The position numbers were made by a program, and so were the translations under genes. 36,312 nucleotides of DNA from Gammaproteobacteria bacterium. Its GTDB lineage: Bacteria; Pseudomonadota; Gammaproteobacteria; Steroidobacterales; Foliamicaceae. This document shows, piece after piece, positions 10,397-16,965 of this stretch. Location: NCBI GenBank assembly GCA_028821145.1, contig JAPPHC010000055.1, positions 1 through 36,312 of the forward strand, read 5' to 3'. Positions within the stretch are counted from its first letter, which is position 1, and the number at the start of each line of letters is the position of its first letter. The notes under the pieces were generated by a model. It saw only the letters and a program-made list of their open reading frames with translations. It did no database searches and was not told the DNA's origin.

Positions 10397-11185
10397 CTAA
10401 TCAATCTGCGCGACTGCCCTCACGGCCGCCTCCCAAAGCAGGCGCACGTTTTCGTAGCCCACCACCAGGTGCGTCAGGCCGCGCCAATCGGACGGATAAA
10501 CGCGGCCTCTGGCCGCACCCAGGAGCGCGCGGCCCTGTCCCACGTCGAGATCGTGATGACCAATCACGACGGCGAGGTCGAAGAGCGGGTCTCCCGGGGC
10601 GGAGAACTCCCAGTCGATGAGACGCAATGCCGGTCCGCGCAGAATGTTCTGCGCCACGGGGTCGTTGTGGCACAGCGCCGGTTTTCTGCGATGACCGGCG
10701 GCCGCCCTGAGGGAACGGCAAGTTTCACGCGCCGTTCTTCGCGCCCGGACATTCCCGACCAGCGATGCGTAGCGATCGAGGGAACGGGCCATGTCCAGCG
10801 GCGCGATGTCAGGGGGTGGAAGAACCGTCTCGTGCAGACGCCGGAGGTTCGCTCCCAGATTGCGCAGAAGCAGTGGATCGCGCAGACCGCCGGGCGTGCA
10901 GGCGCGTCCCGGCAGGCGTCGCGTCACGAGCACTCCGCGGCGGGGATCGGCGAAAACAAGTTCCGGGCCGAGTTCCCGGCCCTCGATCGCGCGCAGGACA
11001 TCGACTTCGGCGGCCCGGTCCAGCCCCAGCAGGCGCACGGCAGGCGTGTCGAAACGAACGACCAGCCCTTCAACGCCCCGCGCGGCCAGCCAGGTTTCGT
11101 TCCATCCTCCGCCGCCGCCGAGCCTGCGGATGAGCTTGACGTCCGCCAGCGCCGGGCACTCGTCAAGCAGCCGCTGCCGTTTCAC
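10397..11185 (-). CDS. APH/choline-kinase fold phosphotransferase, probable thiamine kinase
   Basis: A 262-residue kinase of the aminoglycoside phosphotransferase/choline kinase family. The Brenner motif is H173-N-D175-x4-N180 (HNDPVAQN), followed by the Mg-binding D191 (LIDWEFSAPGDPLFDLA). The N-terminal lobe is GGGGGWNETWLA. The GTG at 11185 overlaps the transporter TGA as GTGA, which supports this start. Being last in a TPP-riboswitch operon after a PnuC-type carrier, it most likely phosphorylates incoming thiamine, as ThiK (also an APH-fold enzyme) does. That role is inferred from context. An unrelated small-molecule kinase is the alternative. Confidence 0.82.
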   Translation of the reverse strand: MKRQRLLDECPALADVKLIRRLGGGGGWNETWLAARGVEGLVVRFDTPAVRLLGLDRAAEVDVLRAIEGRELGPELVFADPRRGVLVTRRLPGRACTPGGLRDPLLLRNLGANLRRLHETVLPPPDIAPLDMARSLDRYASLVGNVRARRTARETCRSLRAAAGHRRKPALCHNDPVAQNILRGPALRLIDWEFSAPGDPLFDLAVVIGHHDLDVGQGRALLGAARGRVYPSDWRGLTHLVVGYENVRLLWEAAVRAVAQID

Positions 11186-11742
11186 GCCGGCAGGGCCTTG
11201 CGCCAGGAACGGTAGCCCACCCATGCCAATGCGAAGTAGCTGGCGTACAGCATGGCGGTGAAATAAAGGCCCCTCTCCAGGTACAGGGCCACGTAAGTCG
11301 TGTCCAGCACCATCCACCAGATCCAGTTGCCGATGTACTTGCGCGCCTGCATGAAGGTGGCCAGCGGCGCCGCGAGCGCGGTGACCACGTCGATGAAGAA
11401 CAGGGAGGATTCGCTGTATTGCGCGCCGAAGATCGTGATCGGTATCGAGACCGCCAGCAGCGCGGCCACCGCGATCAGGTTGTTGCGCCAGCCCCAGTAG
11501 CCGAGCGTCGCCGGGTTCTTCGCTCCCCTGCGCCACTTGCGGTAGCCGTACACGGCCATCACCATGTAGAAGACCTGCAGCCAGGGCTGGAAGATCAGCC
11601 CGGCATCGAGAAATACGACCACGAACAGGCCGGAAGCGACGTACGACGCCAGCCAGCAGGAGATATGGCGGCGTATCGCCAGCACCACGTAGACGAAGCC
11701 GAGGACGACGCCCACGATCTCCAGGACCGACATCAGGTCCAT
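11182..11742 (-). CDS. PnuC-family transporter, probable thiamine carrier (PnuT)
   Basis: A 186-residue inner-membrane protein with about seven hydrophobic segments. The family signature is seen in QVFYMVMAVYGYRKWRRG and in GNWIWWMVLDTTYVALYLERGLYFTAMLY, whose W and N residues line the vitamin site in PnuC structures. PnuC proteins move vitamins by facilitated diffusion and rely on a kinase to trap the substrate. Here the riboswitch upstream and the kinase overlapping the 3' end argue for thiamine (PnuT) rather than nicotinamide riboside. The start could also be Met4 at 11733. The stop overlaps the kinase start. Confidence 0.9.
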   Translation of the reverse strand: MDLMSVLEIVGVVLGFVYVVLAIRRHISCWLASYVASGLFVVVFLDAGLIFQPWLQVFYMVMAVYGYRKWRRGAKNPATLGYWGWRNNLIAVAALLAVSIPITIFGAQYSESSLFFIDVVTALAAPLATFMQARKYIGNWIWWMVLDTTYVALYLERGLYFTAMLYASYFALAWVGYRSWRKALPA

Positions 11743-11755
11743 GCGTAACAGGGCG

Positions 11756-12025
11756 TTAAAGCTGCGGGGGCGAGTCGATGGGCAGGTCGGCGTTCAGGTA
11801 CTTGGCCACCAGCACCACCCGGTCGCCGGATTCCATGACCGCTTTCATGCACGCGTCCACGGCCCGCTGAACGTCCTCCAGCTCGCCGCGAAGCTGGGTG
11901 CTCATCTGGTTGGTGAGTACCTCGACGCCGGGCTGCTCGCGCAACTCCCGGATAAAACCGGTAATGCGCGCTATCGGCTCCTCGCTGGCCAGCGGGTAAA
12001 GGCTGAGTTCGGCGGTGATGCGCAT
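11756..12025 (-). CDS. YkoF-like thiamine/hydroxymethylpyrimidine-binding protein
   Basis: An 89-residue single-domain protein with a ferredoxin-like fold pattern. The N terminus ITAELSLYPLASEEPIARI and the central EVLTNQMSTQLRGELEDV match the thiamine-binding YkoF/MTH1187 (DUF77) family, in which such segments bind thiamine or HMP. No signal peptide is present, so it is cytoplasmic unless exported by another route. It lies 11 bases after the TonB receptor stop, with AGCAGGGGA as ribosome-binding site, and 13 bases before the PnuC-type gene. It may buffer or pass on thiamine between carrier and kinase; this is inferred. Confidence 0.85.
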   Translation of the reverse strand: MRITAELSLYPLASEEPIARITGFIRELREQPGVEVLTNQMSTQLRGELEDVQRAVDACMKAVMESGDRVVLVAKYLNADLPIDSPPQL

Positions 12026-12036
12026 GGTCCCCTGCT

Positions 12037-14160
12037 CTAGAAACGCCGCCGTATGGTAACGCCGAAGTGCCGGGGATCGCCCTGCTGGCGGAACTCCTGT
12101 TCGGGCCAGTCCGGGGGCACGTTGGAAAAGTAGAAACCGCGAACTGCGTAATACTCGTCCAGCAGGTTGCGCACCCAGGCGAACGCCTCCCAGCCGTTCC
12201 AGTCCCGCCCGGCGCGCAGGTTCAACAGTGTGTAAGCGCGCGACTTGCGATCGTGGCTGTTGGAAAAATAGAAGCCGTCCCTGCCGGTGAGTTCGCCGCC
12301 GGCGAACCAGCCCTGCGGATGGCGCCACTGCGCGCCGAGCGCATAGCCGTAGCCCGGCGCGTGCGGCTGCTCGCGGCCCTCCAGTTCCGGACGGCCCGGG
12401 TAGCGGGTGATTTCCGTGTCCAGCAATCCGAGCGTCGCGCTCAAGCGCCACGCGTCGCCGGGCCGGTAATCCAGGGTCAGTTCGACGCCGCGATTGACTC
12501 CGCGCCCGACGTTCCGGGTGTAGAAGAGGAAAGTATTCGGGTCCTGGGGATCCACCTGCCGGGACGTGTCCACCTGCACGTCGACGCGCTGCGAATGAAA
12601 CACGGCCAGTTCGCCGCGCAGCCGACCGTCCAGCCACAGACCCTTGGCGCCAATCTCGTAGTTCCAGAGGAATTCAGGCTCGTACAGGAGTTCGTCGCTG
12701 GTCAGTCCCCGGCCTCCCAGGCCCAGGTTGAATCCGCCGGCCTTGTAGCCGCGCGCAATCCGCGCATAAACGTTCGTGTCCTCGCCGAAGGGCCGCGACA
12801 CACTCAGATGGCCGCCCAGCATGTCGTCCGACGGCGAGAACCGTTCGCCGTTCGAATCGGCGTAGTCGGAGTCGCGCCGTTCCCAGCGCAGACCCGCCGT
12901 TACAAGCCATTGGTCCGCGAACGCGCGCGACAGTTCACCGAACAGCGCCAGGCTGTCGGCGCCGTAGCCGGAATCGAACCGATCCTCGCTGGGTCCGGGC
13001 GCGTAGCCGGGCTCCGCGTACAGGCCCGTATCGACACGGTCGTTGTCTTCATCCAGATTCAGGTACCACACGCCCAGCACATAGCCCGTCTCGCTTTCGG
13101 CCGGCGACAAGAGGCGCAGTTCCTGGCTGAAACCGGAGCGCTCGCGCAAGGTGCGCGAGGTGTAGTCGTAGCGCATCTCGAAGCCGGCAATCTCCGACCA
13201 GTAGCCGTCTTCCCCCCAGTCCGCGTCGTAGCTGTGCTCGATGTCCGAATTCGCCGCGCCGGTAATGCTGACCAGGCTGTGGCCGCCGGAAAGCTCCAGG
13301 TCGGCGCGCATCGAAGCGCCCGTTGACGTCTGCGAATCCCGCCCCGGCCGGTCCGACCAGGTGGTCAGTTCGTTGTCGATGGACCAGCCGTCGTAACCGT
13401 TGTCCAGGTCGATATGCAGCAGCGTCAGGCGCAACGCCAGTTCCGGCGACGGTTCATAGTTGAGCCCGGCCCTGAGGCTCAGCTCCTGACGGCCGTTGGT
13501 ATCGTCGCGGTCCAGCGTGGCGTTGCGCCGAAAACCGTCGGCCCGGTACCGATGCGCCGAAAACCGCCCGGCGGCCGCCGGGCCCAGCGGGCCGCTCAAT
13601 GCCAGCCCCGCGGCGCGCATCTCGTCATTCCCCAGGGAAATCTCGGCCTCGGCCTCCCGCTCCCGGGACGGCTCCCTCGAGCGCGCGTAAATGAGGCCCG
13701 CCAGCGCGTTGGCGCCGTAGCGCGTGCCCTGAGGCCCCCGCAATATCTCCACGCTGCCCAGGTCGAAACGCGTGGCCACGCCGCCGAGGGCCGAGAAGTC
13801 GATGTCATCGAGAATGAACCCGACCGAAGGGTTCGGCGCACCCTCATACTGGGAGCGCTCGCCGATGCCGCGCACCTGGAAATAGCGGGCCCGCGACGAT
13901 CCGCCGGCCCAGTGCAGGTTGGGCGTGAGCTGGGCCAGCTCCTCGAAATGCTGCACCGCCGAACTGCGGATGGCCTGGGCGTCCAGCACGGTGACGCTGG
14001 AGGGCAGGTCCAGGCTCCGCACCTCCTTCAGCGATGCCGTGACCACCACTTCCTCCAGAGGTTCCGGAGCCGAATCCTGCCCCGATTCCTGAGCAAGAAC
14101 CGCGGTCGCCAAAAAGGTGGTTGCTGTAAGGAAAAAACTGCGCGAATTGAAATGCCGCAT
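12037..14160 (-). CDS. TonB-dependent outer-membrane receptor, probable thiamine uptake
   Basis: A 707-residue receptor with a signal peptide of about 23 residues, a TonB box at about 36-43 (EEVVVTAS), a plug domain to about 160 (VRGIGERS... GSVEILRGPQGTRYGANALAG) and a C-terminal beta-barrel ending in the aromatic residue typical of outer-membrane proteins (VTIRRRF). It imports a substrate across the outer membrane using TonB-ExbBD energy. The TPP riboswitch directly before it and the following genes indicate thiamine or a thiamine phosphate. The ATG at 14160 is chosen. The open frame continues through the riboswitch to a TTG at 14199, but that part is regulatory RNA. Confidence 0.93.
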   Translation of the reverse strand: MRHFNSRSFFLTATTFLATAVLAQESGQDSAPEPLEEVVVTASLKEVRSLDLPSSVTVLDAQAIRSSAVQHFEELAQLTPNLHWAGGSSRARYFQVRGIGERSQYEGAPNPSVGFILDDIDFSALGGVATRFDLGSVEILRGPQGTRYGANALAGLIYARSREPSREREAEAEISLGNDEMRAAGLALSGPLGPAAAGRFSAHRYRADGFRRNATLDRDDTNGRQELSLRAGLNYEPSPELALRLTLLHIDLDNGYDGWSIDNELTTWSDRPGRDSQTSTGASMRADLELSGGHSLVSITGAANSDIEHSYDADWGEDGYWSEIAGFEMRYDYTSRTLRERSGFSQELRLLSPAESETGYVLGVWYLNLDEDNDRVDTGLYAEPGYAPGPSEDRFDSGYGADSLALFGELSRAFADQWLVTAGLRWERRDSDYADSNGERFSPSDDMLGGHLSVSRPFGEDTNVYARIARGYKAGGFNLGLGGRGLTSDELLYEPEFLWNYEIGAKGLWLDGRLRGELAVFHSQRVDVQVDTSRQVDPQDPNTFLFYTRNVGRGVNRGVELTLDYRPGDAWRLSATLGLLDTEITRYPGRPELEGREQPHAPGYGYALGAQWRHPQGWFAGGELTGRDGFYFSNSHDRKSRAYTLLNLRAGRDWNGWEAFAWVRNLLDEYYAVRGFYFSNVPPDWPEQEFRQQGDPRHFGVTIRRRF

Positions 14161-14247
14161 ACCTCGTTCCTCCGCCGGTACTAACCGGATCAGGTTCAAG
14201 GGGTTCCCCTATGCAAGGGTCTCAGGCCGGAATGCCGCCCCCCAGGT
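14161..14247 (-). promoter_or_regulatory. TPP riboswitch (THI element)
   Basis: The minus-strand leader has the conserved THI-box blocks in order: a GC-rich 5' strand, CTGAGA then ACCC (about 14224-14214), then GAACCTGATC (about 14197-14188), then GGTTAGTACCGGCG (about 14187-14174) and GGAGGAACG. Outer P1 pairs ACCT (14247-14244) with AGGT (14164-14161). The element ends at the base before the receptor ATG, and the GAGGT ribosome-binding site forms part of the 3' P1 strand. TPP binding should therefore hide it and block translation. It controls the thiamine receptor operon. Confidence 0.95.
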
Positions 14248-14255
14248 AAGCGCAG

Positions 14256-14261
14256 AGTATA
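14256..14261 (-). promoter_or_regulatory. Candidate -10 box for the thiamine operon
   Basis: The minus strand reads TATACT at 14261-14256, which would put the transcript start within a few bases of the riboswitch 5' end (14247). The -35 region is poor. The distance to the riboswitch is what makes this box credible. Confidence 0.5.
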
Positions 14262-14340: not shown

Positions 14341-15222
14341 ATGACCAAGCCCAGGCACGAGTACGAGTACGGCGCGATCGACGCGGTCGTCAATATCTGG
14401 ACGCCGGAGGCCCTGTCGCACCGGCCCGGCTGGCAGGGCGATTTCTTCGTCGGCAAGATGAAGGCCGAAAGCCCGCTCATGGCCGGCCTTTCGCTGGAGC
14501 AGATGATCGAGCGGCTGGACGCCGCCGGCATCGAACGGGCGTTCCTGATCGCCCCGCGCACGGGCCAGGTGGGGCTGCCCGGCTGCTACCACCTGCCCTA
14601 TGAGGTGGTGGCGCAAGCCTGCGAGCAGTATCCCGACCGTTTCAGCGGCCTGGCCGGGATTGATCCCACGCAGGGCATGGAAGGCGTGCGAATGTTCGAG
14701 GACGCCGTGAAGAACATGGGATTCATCGGCGCGCACCTCTATCCGCACTGGTTCGAACTGGCGCCCGACCATGCGCGCTACTACCCCTTCTACGCCAAGT
14801 GCTGCGAGCTGGACGTGCCCATACAGATGCAGGTGGGCCAGTCGATGATCTACGCCAAGGACGCGCCGCGCCGCAGCGTCGGGCGCCCGATCGCGCTGGA
14901 CGCGGTGGCCTGCGATTTCCCGGAACTGAAGCTGATCGGCATCCACGTGGGCATTCCCTGGCACGAGGAGATGATCGCGATGTCGTGGAAGCACGACAAC
15001 GTGTTCATCGGCTGCGACGCGCACCGTCCAAAGTACTGGCCGGACAGCTTCCGCCACTACATCAATTCATTCGGCCAGGACAAGGTCATCTTCGGCACCG
15101 ATTTCCCGGTGCTGGACTTCGAGCGGACGGTGAACGACATCGACGCGCTGGACCTGCGCCCGCACGCGCGCCGCAAGCTGATGCGCGACAACGTCCTGCG
15201 CATCTACGGCCTGGACGCCTGA
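14341..15222 (+). CDS. Amidohydrolase-fold protein (amidohydrolase 2 family) with atypical metal site
   Basis: A 293-residue TIM-barrel protein of the amidohydrolase-2/decarboxylase type. Recognisable segments are YPDRFSGLAGIDP, GFIGAHLYPHW, LIGIHVGIPWHEEMI (His on strand 6) and VIFGTDFPVLDF (Asp on strand 8). The N-terminal HxH metal pair expected after IDA is missing: the sequence is AIDAVVNIWTPEAL. The strand-5 region lacks the usual His (VPIQMQVGQS). It may use a different metal geometry or none; decarboxylase or hydrolase action is possible. The start is supported by GGAGG 8 bases upstream. It diverges from the thiamine operon and has no obvious functional partner. Confidence 0.82.
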   Translation: MTKPRHEYEYGAIDAVVNIWTPEALSHRPGWQGDFFVGKMKAESPLMAGLSLEQMIERLDAAGIERAFLIAPRTGQVGLPGCYHLPYEVVAQACEQYPDRFSGLAGIDPTQGMEGVRMFEDAVKNMGFIGAHLYPHWFELAPDHARYYPFYAKCCELDVPIQMQVGQSMIYAKDAPRRSVGRPIALDAVACDFPELKLIGIHVGIPWHEEMIAMSWKHDNVFIGCDAHRPKYWPDSFRHYINSFGQDKVIFGTDFPVLDFERTVNDIDALDLRPHARRKLMRDNVLRIYGLDA

Positions 15223-15399: not shown

Positions 15400-16965
15400 A
15401 TGGACCTTCACCGCACTCCCTCCCACGCCCCTGTTCGCGATGCCGAGCCTCTCCCGGCAGGCACTGTTTACCCTTCTCCAGACGCTGACGTGCGTATGGC
15501 CGAGTGGGAACGCAAGGAAAAGGCGCTTGGCGCACTCGAGTCGCAGATCATGGAATTGTGGGGCCACATCAACGCGGCCACAGCACGATTCCTGGAGTTG
15601 ATTGCGGAGTTCGACCGCCGGGAGGGCTGGGCCCAGCACGGCATGGCGAGTTGCGCACAGTGGCTGAACTGGCAATGCGGCATCGGCGCGGTTGCGGCAC
15701 GAGAGAAGGTGCGCACGGCCCGCGCCCTGGAATCGCTGCCGAAGATCTCCGCGGCATTCGGCGAAGGCCGGCTGTCGTATTCGAAGGTACGCGCCCTCAC
15801 GCGCGTGGCGACGGCGGAGACGGAAGACACCTTGCTGCACATTGCCCTGAACGGCACGGCGGCGCATGTGGAGCGCACGGTGCGGGGTTTCCGGCGGGTC
15901 AAGCGTCATCTCGAGCGTGACGAGGCCGAGGCGATGCACGAGCGGCGCTACCTGGACTGGCGTCAGGACAGCGACGGCAGCGTAAGGATCGAGGCCCGTT
16001 TGACGCCCGAGGCGGGCGAGTTGCTGCGCAAGGCGCTGGAAGCGGCCGACGCGCAACTCGACGAACGGGGTGGAGACGCGGATACGTCTGATGTGGTTCC
16101 CGAAGGTGTTTCCGCGGAAACATCTGCGCAGCCACGGCCGCGACCCGTGCTGCCGCCATGCTGGGATGCGGCGCCTGAAAATGTTTCCGCGGAAACACCT
16201 CCTCGCAGCGCCGGTCAAAGGCGCGTGGACGCGCTGGAGCACATCGTCCAACGGTTTCTGGCCGAGGGCGGTTCACGCTCTACCGCAGGCGCTCATGAGG
16301 TCGTGGTGCACATCGCGCATGACGCCTTGTGTGACGTGCCGGAGAGCAGCGGTGCGGAATTCGACAACGGCCGCCCTTTAGCGGTGGAGACGGCGCGGCG
16401 GCTGGGTTGCGACGGCGCTCTGGTCGGCGTGGTTGAAGGCGCGAAGGGCGAGCCGCTCGCCGTGGGGCGAAGGACGCGTGCTGTGCCGCCGGCGATCCGG
16501 CGCGCGCTGCGCGTCCGCGACGGCGGCTGCCGCTTTCCCGGCTGCGATCGTTCCCGGTATGTGCACGCCCATCACATCAAGCATTGGGCAGACGGAGGAG
16601 AAACCGCTCTGGACAACCTGGTGACCCTGTGTTCGTTTCATCACCGGCTGGTGCATGAAGGGGGTTATGGCGTTCGAGTGGACGAGGGCGAGATCCGGTT
16701 CACGCGCCCGGATGGAGAGGTGATCCCGGCGGCGGGAAAAGAGCATGGCAGGTGTTTCCGCGGAAACACCTGTGCCGAGTCCGGCAACAGTTGCGAAAAG
16801 CCCGGAAGCACTTGCGCAGCTGGCGGCGCGGAGCAGCTTGAAGCGTTCAATCGGGCACGTGGTCTGGCTATCGACGCCTACACGGCCCGGTGTCGCTGGC
16901 GTGGCGAGCGGATGGACTACGACATCGCCATTGACGGGCTGTGCCGGGAGGCGGGACATACCTGA
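15400..16965 (+). CDS. DUF222 / HNH endonuclease-domain protein (13E12-type)
   Basis: A 521-residue protein. The N-terminal DUF222 helical region runs to about 220 (IMELWGHINAATARFLELIAEFDRREGW, then SYSKVRALTRVAT). The HNH nuclease domain is at about 377-420 (CRFPGCDRSRYVHAHHIKHW, then DNLVTLCSFHHRLVHEGG); its Cys pair and His residues are intact. Such proteins are common in actinobacteria as the 13E12 repeat family and are scattered elsewhere, often as mobile or multicopy genes. Their function is unknown. The linker regions (about 236-265 and 450-475) hold three DNA palindromes and a Cys heptapeptide repeat. The ATG at 15400 follows GGAG by about 8 bases. The AT-rich upstream region and the lack of partners suggest acquisition by transfer. 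Confidence 0.9.
   Translation: MDLHRTPSHAPVRDAEPLPAGTVYPSPDADVRMAEWERKEKALGALESQIMELWGHINAATARFLELIAEFDRREGWAQHGMASCAQWLNWQCGIGAVAAREKVRTARALESLPKISAAFGEGRLSYSKVRALTRVATAETEDTLLHIALNGTAAHVERTVRGFRRVKRHLERDEAEAMHERRYLDWRQDSDGSVRIEARLTPEAGELLRKALEAADAQLDERGGDADTSDVVPEGVSAETSAQPRPRPVLPPCWDAAPENVSAETPPRSAGQRRVDALEHIVQRFLAEGGSRSTAGAHEVVVHIAHDALCDVPESSGAEFDNGRPLAVETARRLGCDGALVGVVEGAKGEPLAVGRRTRAVPPAIRRALRVRDGGCRFPGCDRSRYVHAHHIKHWADGGETALDNLVTLCSFHHRLVHEGGYGVRVDEGEIRFTRPDGEVIPAAGKEHGRCFRGNTCAESGNSCEKPGSTCAAGGAEQLEAFNRARGLAIDAYTARCRWRGERMDYDIAIDGLCREAGHT
16107..16122. repeat. Palindrome copy 1 inside the HNH gene
   Basis: A perfect 16-base palindrome, TGTTTCCGCGGAAACA. It is read as part of G-V-S-A-E-T in the linker between the DUF222 and HNH domains. 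Confidence 0.9.
16182..16197. repeat. Palindrome copy 2 inside the HNH gene
   Basis: The same 16-base palindrome, TGTTTCCGCGGAAACA, 75 bases after copy 1 and in the same reading frame (N-V-S-A-E-T-P). The 75-base spacing is a whole number of codons. Confidence 0.9.
16749..16772. repeat. Palindrome copy 3 inside the HNH gene, extended to 24 bases
   Basis: The 16-base core is extended to a perfect 24-base palindrome with outer arms CAGG/CCTG. It is read in a different frame from copies 1 and 2, giving C-F-R-G-N-T-C. The DNA sequence, not the peptide, is what is conserved. Confidence 0.9.
16759..16821 (+). repeat. Three 21-base tandem repeats encoding a Cys heptapeptide
   Basis: Three adjacent degenerate 21-base units encode RGNTCAE, SGNSCEK and PGSTCAA, one Cys per unit. 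The first unit overlaps palindrome copy 3. The repeat lies after the HNH domain, near the C terminus. Confidence 0.6.

Follow-up and report, generated by a model that had tools for sequence, protein, structure and literature searches.

The window analysed here, the whole 36,312-nucleotide stretch of contig JAPPHC010000055.1 (contig C27 of a 2.22-Mb source assembly), carries on its minus strand a compact four-gene operon behind a thiamine pyrophosphate (TPP) riboswitch. We consider it very probable (roughly 0.87) that these genes let a thiamine-auxotrophic gammaproteobacterium scavenge thiamine (vitamin B1). The operon is a variant of an already known type of system, from which an APH-fold kinase and a YkoF-like protein set it apart. 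A lineage seemingly unable to make vitamin B1 would depend on a single uptake unit that is compact and limits itself, and units of this kind are widespread across the order (Steroidobacterales). The observations behind this reading are the riboswitch match, the gene order and its conservation, and the lack of matches to ThiC, ThiE and thiamine pyrophosphokinase (TPK) in genomes in which ThiL is present; from this context we infer the substrates of the receptor, carrier and kinase.

All five parts named in the initial annotation, a TPP riboswitch, a TonB-dependent receptor, a YkoF-like protein, a PnuC/PnuT-type carrier and an APH-fold kinase, are present on the minus strand. The covariance search that it proposed places the aptamer at 14149-14252 (RF00059, 64.7 bits, E 1.1e-10, model positions 1-105, full length), well over the gathering score of 54.3; the match extends 5 bases further 5' than 14247, where the element had been said to end, and contains the ATG of the receptor gene. 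Directly 5' of it lies a possible -10 promoter box, TATACT (14256-14261, minus strand), found at the same place in all nine genus members; a promoter scan did not flag this site. Proteins were assigned by Pfam and NCBIfam profile searches, and each of the four scored above its Pfam cut-off (the Pfam queries carried 7 extra N-terminal residues for the YkoF-like protein and 5 for the kinase, and lacked the first residue of the receptor). The first gene (12037-14160, ATG at 14160) encodes a TonB-dependent outer-membrane receptor of 707 amino acids (aa; PF00593, 140.7 bits; PF07715, 51.9 bits) and the second (11756-12025) a single-domain YkoF/Thiamine_BP protein of 89 aa (PF07615, 30.6 bits, cut-off 21; PF01910, 29.6 bits, cut-off 24.9). 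These are followed by a PnuC-family carrier of the PnuT type, with the motif WxxWxxxD (11182-11742, 186 aa; PF04973, 136.6 bits), and by an APH-fold, ThiK-like kinase (10397-11185, GTG at 11185, 262 aa; PF01636, 57.2 bits). The spacings read from the sequence, 11 bases, 13 bases and then a 4-base GTGA overlap between carrier and kinase, are exactly those previously claimed.

The family sample consists of nine genomes, all from one genus, and the argument on absent genes rests on the eight relatives, given as 91-95% complete, as absences in the source assembly alone mean little. ThiC, ThiE and TPK (PF04263) were matched in none of the nine genomes, although the same searches matched 13, 11 and 7 of 14 control genomes, respectively. 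ThiL scored above its cut-off in all nine (14/14 controls matched, nine of these above the cut-off). ThiG gave partial matches of approximately 80 residues in five of the nine, one of them barely above the cut-off (23.2 versus 23), and no full match; we read these partial matches as other TIM barrels. Because ThiC, ThiE and TPK are unmatched while ThiL is present, the genus should need thiamine import, an enzyme making thiamine monophosphate (TMP), and ThiL. Its members look like thiamine auxotrophs that would need both imported thiamine and a thiamine-to-TMP kinase, and, if the assigned substrates are correct, the operon would supply the import and the TMP-making enzyme. Across 296 genomes drawn from the order, 41 have ThiC, and a PnuC-family carrier was matched in 230, of which 223 are without ThiC: 223/255 genomes lacking ThiC have a carrier match versus 7/41 with ThiC (Fisher p 1e-19, a genome-level value inflated by relatedness). 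Counted by genus, the figures are 51/56 versus 5/12 (p 4e-4). The lists were compared by hand, and since the carrier profile does not separate PnuT from PnuC, some of the matches may be PnuC.

In the proposed mechanism, the TonB-dependent receptor would take scarce thiamine over the outer membrane, and the PnuT-type carrier would pass it over the inner membrane down its gradient. The APH-fold kinase would then make TMP, which would be unable to leave the cell, and ThiL, encoded elsewhere, would convert this to TPP. Between carrier and kinase, the YkoF-like protein most likely serves as a cytoplasmic buffer by binding free thiamine (or its pyrimidine precursor). When TPP is plentiful it would stabilise the aptamer, so that translation of the receptor and, by coupling, of the other genes would fall. 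The initial annotation had described a complete path from the outer membrane to the cytoplasm ending in metabolic trapping. Capture and trapping are supported, because ThiC, ThiE and TPK are lacking while ThiL is present in the nine genomes; "complete" goes too far, as the energising TonB complex and ThiL lie outside the operon.

The search for the same five-part order in related genomes, also suggested in that annotation, found it in 8/9 genus genomes, and the layout extends across the order. The genes are contiguous in the window and in six relatives (L010, L012, L013, L014, L015 and L016); in L017 approximately 370 bases separate the YkoF-like gene from the carrier gene, with the order otherwise kept. 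Each of the nine genomes, the source assembly included, has a single RF00059 match, and it precedes the receptor frame. Outside the genus we compared 20 loci from the order, a non-random set of mostly high-scoring loci chosen for family spread and contig room. The kinase follows the carrier in all 20. By tblastn, 18 have a receptor upstream of the carrier (L063 shows none and L067 ends too early), and a riboswitch reaches the gathering score in 17 (the contig ends truncate L062 and L067, and in L076 no match attains that score). At L063:7394-8914 no receptor was matched; a 9-codon open frame comes after the riboswitch, and the carrier and kinase genes come immediately after that.

Several observations weigh against a thiamine-scavenging operon. 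The source assembly is only 66% complete, and the operon is split in one genus member (G007), with the receptor and YkoF-like genes on one contig and the carrier and kinase genes on another. The nearest solved relatives of the receptor are siderophore receptors (pesticin, ferripyoverdine); blastp did not match it to the Bacteroides receptor at E <= 1 and matched sphingomonad receptors only weakly and locally. The kinase scores 64.2 bits with the ThiK model TIGR02721, far below the cut-off of 299.45, and is not filed as ThiK; it scores higher for GntI (100 bits, also below the cut-off of 357). The NCBIfam model for the nicotinamide riboside transporter PnuC hits the carrier at 54.0 bits (cut-off 42.45). 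The YkoF-like gene is broken in one of the 20 order loci (an internally deleted remnant in L069) and was not found in six. It is intact in 13, of which tblastn gave 11 and a profile search on the same loci added L064 and L079; because it is intact in only these, it is not essential to the layout. At the riboswitch, the ribosome binding site (RBS) is not clearly free in the predicted fold of the ligand-free leader.

The PnuC hit bears on the most obvious alternative, that the carrier is a true nicotinamide riboside PnuC and the kinase makes nicotinamide mononucleotide, so that the operon would serve nicotinamide adenine dinucleotide (NAD) salvage under a misplaced TPP riboswitch. The carrier does belong to the PF04973 fold family, and a profile from an alignment of 23 carriers (A5; three from the genus, 20 from the order) matches the PnuC structure 4qtn (E 2.7e-12), although a genus-only profile (A1) found no solved structure, 4qtn included. 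The NCBIfam name does not discriminate, however, because the same model also names a Bacteroides carrier that lies between a TonB receptor and a thiamine diphosphokinase behind a TPP riboswitch. D147 is invariant in all 23 carriers of A5. In a further alignment (A7), ten carriers grouped as thiamine-like (five from the order, one each from Bacteroides, Sphingomonas and Novosphingobium, and two from Acinetobacter) have WxxWxxxD, whereas three PnuCs, from E. coli (beside nadA), a Caulobacter phage (beside a ribosylnicotinamide kinase) and plasmid p009_D (beside an AAA ATPase), have WxxWxxxN, as does 4qtn. The grouping of the ten is based on a TPP riboswitch match in six, on an adjoining receptor and kinase only in three, and on neither in the A. 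baumannii plasmid carrier, which has no telling neighbour; the other weaker cases are L076, which lacks a riboswitch match, and Novosphingobium and Acinetobacter variabilis, which have a receptor and phosphotransferase and no riboswitch match in the fetched stretch. By blastp the carrier scores 82-89 bits against five outside thiamine-like carriers versus 42-69 against the three PnuCs. Both motif and scores therefore group it with thiamine-type loci, as the initial annotation had supposed of the carrier, and the D/N residue of the WxxWxxx motif may set specificity. Together with the TPP riboswitch in 17/20 order loci, a gene of a thiamine-binding family inside the operon and the inverse relation of carrier and ThiC, this makes NAD salvage highly improbable. 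It is also very unlikely that the operon captures mainly a thiamine breakdown product or pyrimidine precursor (hydroxymethylpyrimidine, HMP, or aminomethylpyrimidine, AmMP) in place of intact thiamine. YkoF is listed as a B1/HMP-binding protein in the available part of one source (PMC10881298), but ThiE, which joins the pyrimidine and the thiazole, has no match in 9/9 genomes and ThiG no full match, so that a precursor alone should be useless.

Another alternative concerns how far the operon extends. An aldehyde dehydrogenase gene on the same strand starts only 29 bases past the kinase stop codon, and if the operon continued into this gene and the VOC, DUF485 and ActP-like symporter genes, TPP would also control a catabolic pathway. 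The dehydrogenase gene is equally close behind the kinase in 5/8 relatives (L012 to L016), and terminator-like sites are no more frequent in the region than in shuffles, with none at the kinase-dehydrogenase junction. In G001 (L017), however, the block from receptor to kinase, riboswitch included, is inverted between its usual neighbours and thus relative to the dehydrogenase block, and this inversion marks the ends of the operon. In G008 the two blocks are separated by approximately 770 bases, and in the 20 order loci the dehydrogenase and the symporter were each matched just once, weakly (in L080 and L078, respectively). We consider such an extension unlikely, and take the thiamine-scavenging operon to comprise the riboswitch and the four genes from receptor to kinase.

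Among known systems, the closest in plan is the OMthi-pnuT-tnr3 locus of Bacteroides thetaiotaomicron (BT2390, BT2396-2397), which likewise combines a TPP riboswitch, a TonB receptor, a PnuT-type carrier and a thiamine-trapping kinase, according to the accessible portion of PMC5613172. Deletion studies described in that portion tie the Bacteroidetes receptor and carrier to growth at low thiamine (PMC5613172). We examined a B. finegoldii example of this type of locus. The present operon shares the riboswitch, the TonB receptor and the PnuT-type carrier; it has no Tnr3 or TPK. It is not a strict member of the OMthi-pnuT-tnr3 type, because Tnr3, a thiamine pyrophosphokinase, is replaced by an APH-fold ThiK-like kinase that would need ThiL. 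It also differs in having an added YkoF-like gene, and the receptors are not close relatives. The omr1 loci of marine Gammaproteobacteria resemble it in having a TonB receptor gene with a TPP riboswitch nearby: such a gene is reported near a TPP riboswitch in two SAR86 clusters (PMC10881298, in part) and omr1 is expressed by Cellvibrionales (PMC12442306, in part). In the accessible portions of the open-licence literature we found no description of a YkoF-like gene or an APH kinase as members of omr1 loci. Sphingomonad TonB-phosphotransferase-pnuC loci also have a receptor, a phosphotransferase and a PnuC-family carrier adjoining each other, and the Sphingomonas one has a TPP riboswitch (the fetched Novosphingobium stretch has no RF00059 match at the gathering score). 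They differ in gene order and in having no YkoF-like gene annotated.

Similarity of the receptor to those of the Bacteroides, sphingomonad and Acinetobacter loci is weak and local at best, and blastp did not match the kinase to the sphingomonad phosphotransferases at E <= 1. To judge from these comparisons, the recruitment of receptors and kinases into thiamine operons seems to have happened repeatedly. The kinase carries the motifs HND....N and DWEF..PGDPLFDLA, which we take to be those of an active APH-fold enzyme; H173, N174, D175, N180, D191-F194 and P197-A205 are invariant in the 8/9 genus members aligned (G007 left out). It may work like ThiK. A kinase profile found one full-length match in each of the nine genus genomes, with an extra weak match of 52 residues in G005. 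The kinase (10397-11185, minus strand) is 100% identical to that of G005 (L015:10834-11619, plus strand), compared with 94-97% for the receptor, YkoF-like protein and carrier, a hint that recombination took place across the region of the kinase and dehydrogenase.

The position of the YkoF-like gene between receptor and carrier offers a testable role for a family known mainly from structures. A profile of the protein (A6) matches the Bacillus subtilis YkoF structures 1s7h (E 5e-11) and 1s99/1sbr (E 1.6e-10), so that the two share a family by profile as well as a thiamine context; it is not a member of the MTH1187 family TIGR00106 (21.4 bits versus 54.7 required). B. subtilis YkoF has two such stretches in tandem, the second of them weak, and is associated with the YkoEDC transporter, whereas here a single domain accompanies a PnuT-type carrier. 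The YkoF-like profile matches 188/296 order genomes, and in 90 of the 99 genomes for which both coordinates were listed the gene immediately precedes the carrier gene in the same orientation.

Variant arrangements of the YkoF-like gene were observed elsewhere in the order. At L069:6980-7102, between the receptor and carrier genes, it has an in-frame internal deletion that leaves 41 aa; on another contig of this genome there is a second carrier accompanied by an intact YkoF-like gene. In L084 and L085 (genus g30, with ThiC present and no carrier match) the YkoF-like gene adjoins a PhzF-like gene (assigned by a Pfam run for L084 only), and there is no riboswitch match. A protein similar in sequence to that at L084/L085 lies upstream of the full operon in L087, which suggests that the former state arose by loss of the rest of the operon. 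In three further stretches (L082, L083 and L086) a YkoF-like paralogue lies apart from the carrier; all three have PYLIS_3 Rfam matches, and in L083 the paralogue adjoins an MTTB-family methyltransferase gene. In G007 (L011:9161-11218) the place of the carrier, after the YkoF-like gene, is taken by genes for an AAA_14/DUF4143 ATPase and a GmrSD_C protein, and the operon of this genome appears to have been split by insertion.

The leader of the operon is compact. GGAGGA (14168-14173, minus strand), a probable Shine-Dalgarno sequence 7 bases before the ATG, is formed by the core of the aptamer itself in all nine genus members, and in each the receptor start codon follows it 10 or 11 bases inside the end of the riboswitch match. 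The base that completes GGAGGA is G in all nine and T in 15 of the 17 order relatives with a riboswitch match (the exceptions are G in L063 and A in L071). In these 17 the start codon, taken as the first open start by script, lies 34 to 69 bases past the match in 11 and within it in five; in L063 it is at +27, ahead of the carrier. A strand-exchange platform would be expected to show a 7-base complement of the aptamer core downstream. None of the nine genus leaders has an exact complement of this length to the core (GATCCGG, or the local form of it) in the first 80 bases downstream, and 6/19 order leaders have one (L077 was mis-parsed and counted as a miss). Because the start codon lies inside the match after the core GGAGGA, and no core complement follows, the genus riboswitch is suggested to be a direct-occlusion switch, with the RBS in the aptamer core, the start codon in or beside stem P1, and no separate platform seen.

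Two observations speak against direct occlusion: the RBS is not clearly free in the predicted ligand-free fold, and the best outer helix found by script covers the AUG in seven of the nine genus members, with no outer P1 pairs at this place in L002 and L003. The leader folds no better than shuffles (z 0.16; 109/200 shuffles at least equally stable) and its minimum-energy structure is without P1, so the fold argues neither for nor against occlusion. Nor is a compact leader unique to the genus, since in the Bacteroides leader (L092) the annotated start likewise comes directly after the riboswitch match. Comparative work on thiamine genes from 2002 reportedly suggested that the THI element overlaps the RBS in some bacteria. 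For direct occlusion a 2024 review names SAM and preQ1 riboswitches, and for strand exchange one of its examples is TPP (PMC10907184). A combined proposal would be that the genus riboswitch acts by direct occlusion without an expression platform, that it arose from the state in relatives, in which a switching segment lies downstream, when this segment was lost and a T-to-G change made the core an RBS, and that the single-domain YkoF protein buffers thiamine in the cytosol and so renders transport by a passive carrier effective. We put this forward tentatively, as having somewhat less than an even chance of being correct in all its parts. If true, this compact riboswitch would offer a small model of how TPP can exert control in the absence of a separate platform.

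Some relatives of the source organism may come from reef sponges, as their prefixes COS and CAR resemble Coscinoderma and Carteriospongia. These are two of the hosts in a reef-sponge survey, in the portion of PMC8163846 available. If the relatives do come from such sponges, the operon may bear on vitamin B1 dependence between the partners there.

A divergent Amidohydro_2 gene (14344-15222, plus strand) adjoins the operon in the genus and in six order loci (L063, L068, L069, L070, L072 and L076; families f13 and f15). In those six its product is 72-81% identical, and the receptor, present in five of them, 41-48%. Close Amidohydro_2 matches occur in 83/296 order genomes, in some of which (e.g. 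G085, G112 and G120) the gene is on a different contig from the carrier. We rejected the amidohydrolase as a thiamine gene, as it does not lie behind the riboswitch and is elsewhere separated from the carrier in this way. Further from the operon, the palindrome GTTTCCGCGGAAAC occurs in three exact copies (16108-16121, 16183-16196 and 16754-16767) inside a DUF222/HNH gene. It was matched in none of 100 shuffles; among the 99 fetched loci, two copies are found in L016 and L026 (the same contig) and none in the other 97.

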